From Actinomycetota bacterium (lineage in GTDB: Bacteria > Actinomycetota > Thermoleophilia > Gaiellales > Gaiellaceae): DNA of 7,637 nucleotides. The translations under genes were made by a program, and so were the position numbers. The DNA lies in assembly GCA_016870235.1 (NCBI GenBank), contig VGCB01000117.1, positions 1-7,637 on the forward strand. Direction: 5' to 3'. Shown here piece after piece: positions 1 through 7,396 of the stretch; positions within the stretch are counted from its first letter, which is position 1; every line of letters starts with the position of its first letter. Below the pieces are notes generated by a model. That model did no database searches, was not told the origin of the DNA, and saw only the letters and a program-made list of their open reading frames with translations.

Positions 1-190
1 CGGACTTGATCACGATCATCTCGTCCTGATCGGGATGGTCGTGGAAGGCGTGACAGGCGCCGGGCGCCAGCGTCACATCCATGACCACGAAGGTCTGGCA
101 ACCGGTGCCCGGCGGCGCGCACCGCATGCCGGCGCTGCCCCAGTCGAAGTCGGTCACCTCGACCTCGTTCTTCATCACGAACCTGCTCAT
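1..190 (-). CDS. Cupin-domain protein (partial, 3' end beyond window)
   Basis: The first 63 codons are visible, read leftward from an ATG at 190-188. The protein starts MSRFVMKNEV. It carries the first cupin motif, G-X5-H-X-H-X4-E-X6-G: Gly44, His50, His52 and Glu57. The cut codon after Ser63 begins with g, as the motif's final Gly would require. His50, His52 and Glu57 are the expected metal ligands of a small single-domain cupin, a beta-barrel fold used by isomerases, dioxygenases, decarboxylases and sugar- or acid-binding proteins. Its ATG overlaps the stop of the upstream TIM-barrel gene (ATGA, 190-187), so the two are probably translationally coupled. A purine-rich stretch (GGGAGAGG) lies just upstream of the ATG. 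The exact reaction cannot be told from this fragment. A role on the same substrate as the two upstream enzymes is inferred from the operon alone. Confidence 0.85.
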   Translation of the reverse strand, partial: MSRFVMKNEVEVTDFDWGSAGMRCAPPGTGCQTFVVMDVTLAPGACHAFHDHPDQDEMIVIKS

Positions 191-1023
191 GAAGCCTCTC
201 CCTCGACGTCGATGGACTTGAACCGGCGCATGTTCTCGGTCATCGCGATCTCGGTCGGCAGCCGCTCCATCGAGGAGGCGCCGAAGAAGCCGACGACGCC
301 CTCGGTGCGGGCGAGCACGTACGCCGCGTCGTCCGGCTCGGCGATCGGGCCGCCGTGGCAGAGCACGATCACGTCCGGGTTGACGCGACGGGCGACGTCG
401 TGCATCGCCTGGATCAGCGGCACGCAGTCGTCGAGCGCCCTCGCGGTGCCGGCGCCGATCGTGCCGCCGGTCGTCAGCCCCATGTGCGGGACGAGCACGT
501 CCGCCCCGGCCCGGGCCATCGCGTCCGCCTCCTCGACCGTGAAGACGTACGGAGCGGTCAGCAGGCCCTTCTCCCGCGCGAGCCGGATCATCTCGACCTC
601 GAGCCCGTAGCCCATGCCGGTCTCCTCCAGGTTCTGGCGGAAGGTGCCGTCGAAGAGCCCGACCGTGGGGAAGTTCTGGACACCGCTGAAGCCGATCCGG
701 CGGAGCTCGTCGAGGAAGACGTCCATCAGCCGGAAGGGATCGGTGCCGCAGACGCCGGCGAGGACGGGCGTCTCGCGCACGACCGGCAGCACCTCGCGCG
801 CCATGTCGACCACGATCGCGTTCGCGTCGCCGTAGGGCAGGAGGCCGGAGAGCGAGCCACGGCCGGCCATGCGGTAGCGGCCGGAGTTGTAGACGATGAT
901 CAGGTCGGTACCGCCGGCCTCGGCGCACTTCGCGGAGAGGCCGGTGCCGGCGCCCGCGCCGATGATCGGCCGGCCGGCGGCGATCTCCGCACGGAGCCGC
1001 GCGAGCGCCTCCGCGCGGGTCAC
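187..1023 (-). CDS. TIM-barrel 'phosphoenolpyruvate hydrolase family' protein (homologous to the C-terminal half of plant Tm-1)
   Basis: Complete 278-residue protein, near the usual length for this family (Pfam PEP_hydrolase, earlier 'TIM-barrel signal transduction protein'). Hallmark stretches in order: GAGAGTGLSAK at 22-32, YNSGRYRMAGRGSLSGLLPY at 45-64 followed by GDAN, GVCGTDP at 90-96, GVQNFPTVGLFDG at 114-126, the LEETGMGY block at 132-139, PHMGLTTGG at 179-187 and LCHGGP at 221-226. They are spaced as expected for successive strand-end loops of a (beta/alpha)8 barrel. There is no signal peptide or membrane segment, so it is cytosolic. The start is GTG at 1023, with GAGGAG at 1036-1031 seven bases upstream, and it overlaps the UPF0261 stop by 4 nt (GTGA). 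In plants and fungi this domain is fused behind a UPF0261 domain in the same order. The family name implies a PEP-related reaction, but the physiological reaction is not well established and I do not assign one. Confidence 0.9.
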   Translation of the reverse strand: MTRAEALARLRAEIAAGRPIIGAGAGTGLSAKCAEAGGTDLIIVYNSGRYRMAGRGSLSGLLPYGDANAIVVDMAREVLPVVRETPVLAGVCGTDPFRLMDVFLDELRRIGFSGVQNFPTVGLFDGTFRQNLEETGMGYGLEVEMIRLAREKGLLTAPYVFTVEEADAMARAGADVLVPHMGLTTGGTIGAGTARALDDCVPLIQAMHDVARRVNPDVIVLCHGGPIAEPDDAAYVLARTEGVVGFFGASSMERLPTEIAMTENMRRFKSIDVEGEAS

Positions 1024-5204: not shown

Positions 5205-6263
5205 CTAGAGACTCGATCCACGGGCCATCGCGACCTTGCCTCCGCGGTTGCCGCGCACCGTGGCCCACACCCGTTCCCAGATCCCGAGCAGCCCGTCCGG
5301 GGAGACCACGACGATCGCGAGGAAGATCGCGCCGACGATGGTGTTGAAGCTGCCGCCGATCACGGGCAGGCCCGAGCTCGGGATGTTGTTGGTGACCTGG
5401 TTGTCGATGACGATGACCATGAAGGCGCCGAGCCAGGCTCCCTCGACGCGCCGAAGGCCGCCGATCACGGCCATCACGAGCAGCTGGATCGTGGCGGGCA
5501 GGCCGAGGTCGCCCGGCGCGACCTGACCCTGCCACCAGACGAGGAGGATGCCCGCGACCGCGGCGATGAACGCCGCCAGGCCGAAGGCCAGGGTCCGGTG
5601 CAGCGCGACGTTGTACCCGAGCGAGCTCATCCGCACCGGCTCGTCGCGGATCCCCTGCAGCACGAGCCCGAAGGGCGTCCTCAGGACGAACCGGATCAGG
5701 AGGTAGACCGCGACGGCGACGATGAGCGCGATGAAGTACAACCGCGTCCGGTCGTTCACCATGTCGCCGATGAACCCGGGCGTGTAGCGATTGACACCGG
5801 CGATCGGCGAGAAGCCTCCGAACTGCGTGACGGAGCCGAAGAAGAGGTTGGCGATCACGCCGCAGGTGAGCGTCAGCATCAGGAAGTAGATGCCGAGGCT
5901 CCTCGCCGCGAGCGCGCCGAAGAGGAGGCCGATGACGGTCGTGACGACGACGGCGAGCACGAGGCCGACGGTGGGATCCCAGCCGAGGGTGAGCCCCTTC
6001 GTCTCGCCGCCGGGGACGCGGGCGGTGACCATGTTGCCGAGCAGGTACGCGGCGATGCCGACGAGCGCCGTCTGCGCGAGCGAGATCATGCCCCCGTAGG
6101 CGGAGAGGAAGATGAGGCTGGCTGCGGCGATGCCGAAGATCAGCGTCTGGATCAGGATCGCGTCGAGCCAGTAGCTGCTGACGAGCCACGGTGCCGCGAT
6201 CGCGAACGCGAGGACGAGTGCGCCGAAGCCGCGCTCGGTCAGCGCCTTCGGGCCGGCGCTCAC
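5205..6263 (-). CDS. livM: HAAT-family ABC transporter permease, LivM type
   Basis: Complete 352-residue inner-membrane permease, half of the translocation pore with LivH. About nine or ten hydrophobic segments are visible, roughly at 14-30, 35-55, 63-80, 98-118, 123-143, 175-194, 223-245, 256-280 and 303-320. Family marks: LSAYGGMISLAQTALVGIAAY at 53-73, the cytoplasmic coupling-loop sequence LQGIRDEPVRMSSLGYN at 202-218 (compare LivM 'lrairedeiaA.alGin'), VIGGLRRVEGAWLGA at 266-280, and the C-terminal SPDGLLGIWER at 321-331. The GTG start at 6263 overlaps the livH stop by 4 nt (GTGA), with GAGGG at 6274-6270 six bases upstream. The frame stays open upstream across livH, but that sequence is Arg-rich and is only the shadow of livH. 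The stop is TAG at 5207-5205. The substrate is not deducible. Confidence 0.94.
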   Translation of the reverse strand: MSAGPKALTERGFGALVLAFAIAAPWLVSSYWLDAILIQTLIFGIAAASLIFLSAYGGMISLAQTALVGIAAYLLGNMVTARVPGGETKGLTLGWDPTVGLVLAVVVTTVIGLLFGALAARSLGIYFLMLTLTCGVIANLFFGSVTQFGGFSPIAGVNRYTPGFIGDMVNDRTRLYFIALIVAVAVYLLIRFVLRTPFGLVLQGIRDEPVRMSSLGYNVALHRTLAFGLAAFIAAVAGILLVWWQGQVAPGDLGLPATIQLLVMAVIGGLRRVEGAWLGAFMVIVIDNQVTNNIPSSGLPVIGGSFNTIVGAIFLAIVVVSPDGLLGIWERVWATVRGNRGGKVAMARGSSL

Positions 6264-7396
6264 GCGGAGCCCTCGCGTCCGAAGAGGCCGGTCGGGCGGA
6301 ATGCGAGCACGAGCGCGAGGAGGACGAACGTCGACACGATCGAGTACTGCGTGCAGCAGCCGTCGTTGACGACCGGCAGATAGGCGGCGGAGAAGGCGAA
6401 CACGAGCCCGTACAGCAGCGAGCCCGCGGCGGCGCCGAGCAGCGATCCCATGCCGCCGACGATGACGACGACGAGCGCGTTCAGGAGCCACTGGCCGTCC
6501 TGCCCGGAGGCGACCGTCGACTGCGAGCCGCCGACGACCGCTCCGATCCCGACGAGCGCCGAGCCGACGAGGAACGCGATCGCGAACGTGCGCTGGACGT
6601 TGACTCCGAGCGCAGCGGTCATCTGCCGGTCGTCGACGCCCGCGCGGATCACCATGCCGGTCCGCGTCCGGTACAGCCATGACCAGAGCACGACGCCGAC
6701 CGCGACCCCGATGAAGAGCATGACGAGCCGGGCGAGCGAGTAGCGCACGTCCCACACGTGGAGGTCGACGAGCCGGTTCGTCCAGCCCGGCCACGTGAGC
6801 GTGACCCCGTTGCCGCCGAAGCGAACCGCACCCTCGGGAACCGAGCGCGGGAAGTGCGCGATGATCTGGTCGGCCACGATCACGGACACGGCGATCGTGA
6901 TCAGCGCCTGCCGGAGATCCTGGCCCTGGTTCCAGCGGAGGAAGATCTGCTGGATCACGAGCCCGAACACCGCGATGCATGCGGCAACGACGAGCATCGG
7001 CACGACCCACTCCCACGTGTTCACCTCGGTGCCGGGGATCGTGAACCCCTGACCCGTCATCGTCTGCTGGATCTCGTACCCGATGTACCCGCCGAGCAGG
7101 TAGAAGGAGCCGTGGGCCATGTTGACGACGCGCATCAGCCCGAAGATCAGGGAGAAGCCGCTCGCGATGATGAACAGCAGGCCGGCGAACGTGACTGCGT
7201 CGAGGAGAACGCGCAGGAACGACCCGGGGTCGTCGATCGCCGAGCCGAAGTTCGTCGTCCGCCAGTCGCCGCCGACCCCGGTCGACTGCGTCGCGATCAC
7301 GAGGACGAAGAGGACGGCGAAGAGGACGAGCGCGCCGACGAGCGCGCGGGGGGCGAGTCGGCGCAGGTCGACGTGGCCGAGCCGGAGTGACAGCAC
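6260..7396 (-). CDS. livH: HAAT-family ABC transporter permease, LivH type, with N-terminal extension
   Basis: Complete 378-residue inner-membrane permease. The LivH core is clear: SGFSLIFGLMRVVNMAHGSF at 79-98 followed by YLLGGYIGY, ALGVNVQRTFAIAFLVGSAL at 262-281, VVVIVGGMGSLLGAAAGSL at 309-327, and FRPTGLFG at 366-373 near the end. E. coli LivH is 308 residues and starts close to its first core helix. Here about 60 residues precede the core, including an extra hydrophobic segment at about 19-36 and a soluble loop at 38-60. A further polar loop lies at about 183-215. The GTG start at 7396 has no Shine-Dalgarno, but it falls at the expected transcription start of the promoter at 7431-7403, so the mRNA is probably leaderless. 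It is first in the operon, and its stop overlaps the livM start. Confidence 0.93.
   Translation of the reverse strand: MLSLRLGHVDLRRLAPRALVGALVLFAVLFVLVIATQSTGVGGDWRTTNFGSAIDDPGSFLRVLLDAVTFAGLLFIIASGFSLIFGLMRVVNMAHGSFYLLGGYIGYEIQQTMTGQGFTIPGTEVNTWEWVVPMLVVAACIAVFGLVIQQIFLRWNQGQDLRQALITIAVSVIVADQIIAHFPRSVPEGAVRFGGNGVTLTWPGWTNRLVDLHVWDVRYSLARLVMLFIGVAVGVVLWSWLYRTRTGMVIRAGVDDRQMTAALGVNVQRTFAIAFLVGSALVGIGAVVGGSQSTVASGQDGQWLLNALVVVIVGGMGSLLGAAAGSLLYGLVFAFSAAYLPVVNDGCCTQYSIVSTFVLLALVLAFRPTGLFGREGSA

Follow-up and report, generated by a model that had tools for sequence, protein, structure and literature searches.

An apparent HAAT-type importer operon with a Tm-1-like UPF0261 and TIM-barrel gene pair: recurrence and a proposed uptake-and-processing role

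Proteins of the Tm-1 family are found in plants, fungi, bacteria, and archaea, and in the literature consulted their biochemical role is open, apart from the effect on tomato mosaic virus. The two constituent families, UPF0261 and the PF09370 TIM barrel, have been reported to co-evolve and to be fused in plants (Yang et al., PMC5028733); the available part of that account names no importer, and records for PF09370 the older name of TIM-barrel signal transduction domain. Phosphorylation of a small molecule is the proposed first step of the hpe cluster of Rhodococcus GD02, which according to the available text is ordered hpeHI (kinase), hpeCBA (carboxylase), and hpeD (phosphatase) (PMC9618137), and a very similar pathway in Novosphingobium aromaticivorans is described, in the section at hand, as started by the single-component kinase MarK (PMC13101465). 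Excerpts from two further sources, one noting the absence of VceA and VceB homologues from N. aromaticivorans (PMC11837543) and the other a TIM-barrel protein among released proteins (PMC8508112), have no direct bearing on the DNA considered here. This is a stretch of 7,637 nucleotides (contig VGCB01000117.1 of assembly GCA_016870235.1; henceforth the window, at its full length) from a member of the Gaiellaceae, in which the genes of a HAAT-type ATP-binding cassette (ABC) importer run into a UPF0261 gene and a PF09370 TIM-barrel gene, the equivalents of the two halves of Tm-1.

Layout of the predicted operon and importer type

Open reading frames and Pfam matches define the order livH-livM-binding protein-livG-livF-UPF0261-TIM-cupin, entirely on the minus strand. 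The LivH-like permease gene, with a GTG start (6260..7396; BPD_transp_2, 93.7 bits), overlaps by 4 bases the LivM-like permease gene (5205..6263; BPD_transp_2, 100 bits), which is followed after 73 bases by the gene of a Peripla_BP_6 substrate-binding protein (3740..5131; PF13458, 99.1 bits). Two bases further on lies a LivG-like ATPase gene (2964..3737; PF00005 and PF12399, the BCA_ABC_TP_C tail), overlapping by 8 bases a LivF-like ATPase gene (2249..2971; PF00005), and 11 bases separate the latter from the UPF0261 gene (1020..2237; PF06792 and PF23189), which corresponds to the N-terminal half of Tm-1 and may encode a small-molecule kinase. The TIM-barrel gene (187..1023; PF09370, 442 bits), equivalent to the C-terminal half of Tm-1 and encoding a putative lyase or hydrolase, overlaps by 4 bases both the UPF0261 gene and the start of a small cupin gene that is cut by the window edge (1..190). 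A preliminary description of this DNA had proposed a complete importer running unbroken into the UPF0261, TIM, and cupin genes, and all of these are indeed present, spaced by -8 to +73 bases; its claim of eight genes stands, but the cupin falls outside the range of 187..7396 that it assigned to them. Scanning the window for terminator-like sites gave none on the coding strand (2 against 1.7 expected on the other strand), and a scan of the window for a sigma-70-like promoter found none.

With a Peripla_BP_6 protein, two BPD_transp_2 permeases, and two ABC ATPases, one of them bearing a BCA_ABC_TP_C tail, the importer is of the HAAT type. It is neither a classical leucine importer nor a urea importer by model, and both assignments were rejected on the curated NCBIfam cut-offs. 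All Liv models score below them (LivF 178.5 against 441, LivG 186 against 362, LivH 67.7 against 379, and LivM 36.5 against 366), as do all Urt models (UrtB 133.9 against 250.3, UrtC 104.8 against 296.2, UrtD, TIGR03411, 211.6 against 304.1, and UrtE 214.5 against 285.8). The LivG-like and LivF-like proteins are 37% and 40% identical to E. coli LivG and LivF, respectively. For the binding protein there is no match to any NCBIfam model and no significant BLASTP match to E. coli LivJ (E 0.094), and hhalign gave no usable alignment (probability 0.8%) on which to place the LivJ contact residues. The default leucine label, suspected of being wrong in the preliminary description, is an unsafe one, and the findings as a whole would warn against the "branched-chain amino acid" database label on such binding proteins. 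The preliminary description had also pointed to an LSHG signature in LivG; an LSHGE signature, presumably UrtD-like, is confirmed, but the urea system that it hinted at is not. In its predicted structure (pLDDT 88.3), the binding protein has 4zpj as its nearest fold, followed by Rhodopseudomonas aromatic-acid binders, and four of the eight nearest folds name hydroxybenzoate or vanillate as ligand (4f06, a fifth, is not counted).

Recurrence of the importer-pair linkage

The linkage was assessed in an even sample of 299 genomes from the class of L002 (one of the loci with a related binding protein; loci read are numbered with L), the genome of L002 included. UPF0261 was matched in 32 of these genomes (46 match rows), and the 40 regions fetched contain 43 UPF0261 genes. 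A livF gene (more than 50% identical, on the same strand) lies within 2 kb upstream of 12 of the 21 UPF0261 genes that are at least 59% identical to that of the window, one of the remaining nine (L079) having no room before the contig edge, and upstream of none of the 22 less similar ones. The chance expectation, with binding proteins per genome as a proxy for importers, is about 0.05 cases among 21, although the 12 livF-linked genes are related to one another and are not 12 independent events. Broken down by partner, livF precedes 8 of 19 UPF0261 genes with an adjoining TIM gene and 4 of 24 without one, and three of these four (L069, L070, L072) stand at a contig end, where a TIM gene could be unseen. 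All eight genes occur in order in L002, L074, L075, L081, and L084, and L011/L076 show one extra gene after livF.

Similar arrangements are seen in a survey of ten UPF0261/TIM neighbourhoods on plasmids, hand-picked and not a random sample. Thermomicrobium roseum carries livH-livM-binding protein-livG-livF-UPF0261-TIM, the same seven-gene order as the window, and Variovorax and Shinella have the pair behind an importer in which LivF and UPF0261 form a single protein by Pfam (L023:10945-13197, L024:9719-11908). Haloarcula holds importer, cupin, TIM, and UPF0261 genes inside about 9 kb, and in Azospirillum HAAT-annotated genes lie about 12 kb upstream of the pair. No HAAT genes adjoin the pair in the other five plasmid loci (Rubrobacter, Haloterrigena, Rhizobium, Ewingella, and Streptomyces); a sodium symporter takes the place of the HAAT importer in Rubrobacter, the order is TIM-cupin-UPF0261 in Haloterrigena, and carbohydrate ABC genes lie near the pair in Rhizobium. 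A protein search with the 750-residue fusion returned 7974 of 7997 scored candidates at E 0.001, and each of the best 120, for which alone the architecture was listed, carries ABC_tran and both UPF0261 domains. Since the JGI name on many of these joins "UPF0261 family" to "ABC-type branched-subunit amino acid transport system", databases already record the fusion, without a function. Importer linkage requires at least five changes on a quick tree built from 76 UPF0261 rows, and the fusions fall on another branch than the importer-linked homologues of the window. Linkage to UPF0261 likewise requires at least five changes on a tree made from 31 binding proteins, a count that may be slightly high, as L009 and L010 were scored as lacking it though their contigs end. 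Each change in either tree may be a gain or a loss. At the sequence level, the gene order, its recurrence, and the LivF-UPF0261 fusions are established.

Several counts weigh against a fixed association. Among 18 loci with a related binding protein, UPF0261 directly follows livF in four (L001, L002, L018, and L006, which is partly visible) and follows after one gene in L011, and some other gene comes after livF in ten (L003, L004, L005, L007, L008, L012, L013, L015, L016, and L017, with only some 335 bases visible in L007). The contigs of L009 and L010 stop within the binding-protein gene or shortly beyond it, and the UPF0261 genes of L014 are located elsewhere on its contig. Furthermore, nine of the 18 genomes have a UPF0261 match and nine have none, among the latter that of L004, a locus on a 2.62-Mb contig whose binding protein is 75% identical to that of the window. 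In an even sample of 396 genomes from the phylum, the TIM family was matched in 30, in 29 of them above the cut-off, and 16 high-scoring loci were read besides G002 (L106-L121, of which L108, L109, and L110 are near-copies and L118 leaves little room upstream). UPF0261 lies near the TIM gene in all 16, livF is directly upstream in none, and an importer appears only in L120, about 4 kb upstream, the region read showing none in the other 15. Of four low-scoring loci read, two show no UPF0261 and two have it at a distance; one of the latter (L125) also has genes with weak similarity to LivF, LivG, and LivH at about 6 kb.

On these locus counts, the link between importer and pair is strong in the sampled class and rare in the phylum sample; in the class it is far beyond chance, yet not obligatory. 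Conservation of the eight-gene order thus extends to class relatives, and over seven genes to Thermomicrobium, but fails in the ten binding-protein loci, and the regions read around 15 of the 16 phylum pairs show no importer; these loci, together with the nine genomes devoid of UPF0261, contradict the earlier view of the importer as dedicated in any strict sense. The related idea that the substrate of the pair is imported gains from the class linkage, the Thermomicrobium order, and the fusions, but not in the form of an always co-conserved pathway. Taken together, the data suggest that an uptake-linked role for the Tm-1-like pair, while only partly supported, has more behind it than the preliminary description could see.

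Other elements accompany the operon. The 63-residue cupin piece (frame 2-190) has no Pfam match because of its shortness, and 43 of its first 62 residues are identical to the L002 cupin, a PF07883 protein. On the plus strand, the window edge cuts a divergent LarA-like gene of the nickel lactate racemase family (7562..7637), with 19 of 25 residues identical to an L002 protein that matches PF09861 Lar_N with 109.9 bits (LarA_C 22.6, under the cut-off of 25); the gene is also divergent in L002, and a more distant neighbour in L010 and L076. Between the livH and LarA-like starts lies the palindrome ATAATCGATTAT (7444..7455), a candidate operator on its positional conservation before livH. In a comparison of 26 livH upstream stretches (L068 repeats L002, L076 repeats L011, and L078 repeats L014), it matches at 12 of 12 positions in the window and L004, 11 in L010, and 10 in L002 and its repeat, with its far edge 60-61 bases ahead of the livH start in all four loci; L070 has 11 matches, but 157 bases away, and the remaining stretches have 5-8. 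A TolB-like propeller gene follows livF in L004 (12923-13837; PD40 by Pfam), L005 (12767-13744; by eye), and L011 (12844-13776; by eye), and in L011 it separates livF from UPF0261; UPF0261 is not matched in the genomes of L004 and L005. Molybdenum hydroxylase genes of the CoxL/CoxS type recur near the importer or the pair (L002:2016-5754 by Pfam, and L081:8782-11656, L084:12652-15523, and L106:1184-4915 by weak tblastn).

A proposed kinase role and competing explanations

Both Pfam domains of the window UPF0261 score far above their cut-offs of 27 bits (207.6 for the N-terminal and 315.5 for the C-terminal domain), and among solved structures its best relatives are those of tomato Tm-1 (3wry and kin) and 9mpy. 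The latter, released in 2025, is Saro_1862, a UPF0261 domain protein of N. aromaticivorans with bound acetovanillone, which is named in none of the open-licence papers listed for it. The closest plasmid relatives of Saro_1862 come from Novosphingobium humi (71%), Sphingobium yanoikuyae and Sphingomonas bisphenolicum (both 67%), and Pseudomonas putida (54%). In all four such loci read (L126:8980-14365, L127:9983-15465, L128:4936-10321, L129:10001-15305), UPF0261 stands directly before biotin carrier, biotin carboxylase, carboxyltransferase, and HAD phosphatase genes. L126 and L128 share an identical UPF0261 and a beta-keto acid cleavage enzyme just upstream, and an AMP-binding ligase takes that place in P. 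putida. Saro_1862 is by inference MarK, or an equivalent of it, and the acetovanillone-bound protein and the clusters of its kin suggest by analogy that UPF0261 proteins are small-molecule kinases. Two points count against carrying this role over to the window: its UPF0261 is 35-38% identical to the Saro_1862-type relatives, and in the quick tree it lies outside the 9mpy clade, among TIM-associated sequences. Residues D11, G102, P121, K122, N155, H217, and R261 are nevertheless invariant in all 76 UPF0261 rows, 9mpy included, a conservation as well established as the gene order, and with these seven shared residues set against the identity and tree position, the transfer is plausible. A fold search beyond the family returned only UDP-N-acetylglucosamine 2-epimerases and glycosyltransferases with low template-modelling scores, which were not used. 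Elsewhere, UPF0261 has class III aminotransferases and either a HAD hydrolase or an APH-type phosphotransferase as neighbours, with no TIM gene annotated nearby (L130:7986-9230, L131:7989-9224).

The T. roseum locus also holds separate PPDK_N and PEP-utilizer genes (PEP, phosphoenolpyruvate), an arrangement that the available part of one source gives for two-part phenol kinases (PMC12167813). The PEP-utilizer protein matches the rifampin phosphotransferase type (5fbs, E 9.8e-30). The PPDK_N protein scores better to PEP synthase (8a8e, E 4e-63) than to HpeI (9goj, E 2.3e-58), so that these genes are only a hint of a phenol kinase. Cyclase and FAH genes accompany them downstream of the importer-UPF0261-TIM operon (L019:13636-19167).

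The TIM protein matches PF09370 over its full length (profile positions 2-267 of 267; cut-off 33.8 bits) and is close to Mll9387 (2p10, E 2.4e-112). Pfam names this family phosphoenolpyruvate hydrolase-like, and we take it to belong to the PEP/pyruvate TIM superfamily; name and superfamily together point to a lyase or hydrolase. In Azospirillum, next to the UPF0261-TIM pair, PF09370 makes up the N-terminal region of a sigma-54 activator that has a Fis-type helix-turn-helix (L025:16046-17872), which fits a domain that binds the small molecule of the pathway.

The explanation favoured here, with moderate confidence, is that the operon is an uptake-and-processing unit of importer, kinase, and TIM-barrel enzyme. 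The HAAT importer would bring in a small carboxylated, possibly phenolic, compound; UPF0261 would phosphorylate it as a one-component ATP-dependent kinase; the TIM barrel would cleave or hydrolyse the phosphorylated or enolic product; and the cupin, perhaps with the divergent LarA-like enzyme, would provide supporting steps. Kinase activity, TIM chemistry, and substrate are what we infer, and the phenolic nature of the substrate is the weakest step; the lead comes from the acetovanillone held by Saro_1862, whose relatives occupy the kinase position of hydroxyphenylethanone-type clusters, and from the hydroxybenzoate and vanillate binders among the nearest folds of the binding protein. A bolder and unlikely extension would have UPF0261 act physically on the importer, docked to LivF in the operon type and part of it in the fused type, so that substrate is phosphorylated on entry, as an ABC counterpart of group translocation, before the TIM barrel cleaves it; plant Tm-1 would then be a soluble, importer-free descendant. 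The open-licence listings searched contain no mention of UPF0261 being joined to a HAAT importer, whether in an operon or by fusion. The term "undescribed" given to the pathway at the outset needs qualifying, because the ligand-bound Saro_1862 structure already takes part of the novelty. The link to an importer, down to fusion, and a ligand-bound relative whose kin occupy an apparent phenol-kinase position yield a short list of assays for a family of "unknown function", and the explanation, if true, would add to what is described of how small compounds, possibly from plants, are used, by introducing a new step.

Possible, if doubtful, is the same architecture serving a non-aromatic import, a hydroxy or sugar acid or a nitrogen-containing carboxylate, with the LarA-like racemase interconverting stereoisomers and the pair phosphorylating and cleaving the acid. 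The placement of the LarA-like gene in the window, L002, L010, and L076, the carbohydrate ABC genes in Rhizobium, and, around importers lacking the pair, SMP-30 lactonase and xylose-isomerase-like genes (by Pfam) and genes resembling amidases and isochorismatases (by eye) would all suit such a substrate, whereas the acetovanillone in Saro_1862 and the four aromatic binders among the eight nearest folds speak for the phenolic one. Less likely still is a control module in which UPF0261 sits on the importer ATPase and the TIM barrel senses a ligand, tuning transport or signalling. The fusion to LivF, the sigma-54 activator, and the older signal transduction name of PF09370, as given in the available text (PMC5028733), are in keeping with it; against it, UPF0261 relatives occupy the place of the kinase in carboxylase-phosphatase clusters, in stretches that carry no annotated importer gene, the phylum-sample pairs mostly have no importer in the region read, and Pfam calls PF09370 phosphoenolpyruvate hydrolase-like. 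That the importer is an ordinary branched-chain amino acid one, with neighbours acquired by chance or lineage-specific operon growth, would accommodate the close importers without the pair and the concentration of livF-UPF0261 adjacency in the class sample, but is very unlikely in view of the excess of linked genes over expectation, the fusions on a separate UPF0261 branch, the Thermomicrobium operon, the Liv scores below cut-off, and the poor LivJ match.

Comparison with known systems

The uptake-and-processing unit proposed here shares parts with several described systems. The urea importer UrtABCDE provides the best NCBIfam matches for four of the five importer proteins and shares the LSHGE signature in LivG, but differs in the sub-threshold scores and in a binding protein outside all models. 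The Rhodopseudomonas aromatic-acid HAAT binding proteins (4evq, 4evs, 4f06, 4eyg, and 4ey3) are close to the window binding protein in fold, although only 17-19% identical to it, and here that protein is coupled to a UPF0261 and a TIM gene. HpeHI-CBA-D of Rhodococcus rhodochrous GD02 and AcvABCDEF of SYK-6 have the same proposed first step, but their kinase is, in the available portions of the reports, a two-part dikinase (PMC9618137, PMC12167813), and neither their biotin-dependent carboxylase nor their HAD phosphatase is among the genes identified in the window, which ends inside the cupin and LarA-like genes. The Saro_1862-type clusters of sphingomonads and Pseudomonas share the UPF0261 fold and its conserved residues, and differ in belonging to a separate clade, at about 37% identity, and in their surroundings: a TIM gene is absent from all four loci read, and the three annotated ones have no HAAT annotation. 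Lastly, the plant Tm-1-like proteins comprise the same UPF0261 and TIM halves, fused in plants and encoded here by adjacent but separate genes in the company of an importer, an association that implies no role against viruses of the kind discussed in the accessible text for plants (PMC5028733).

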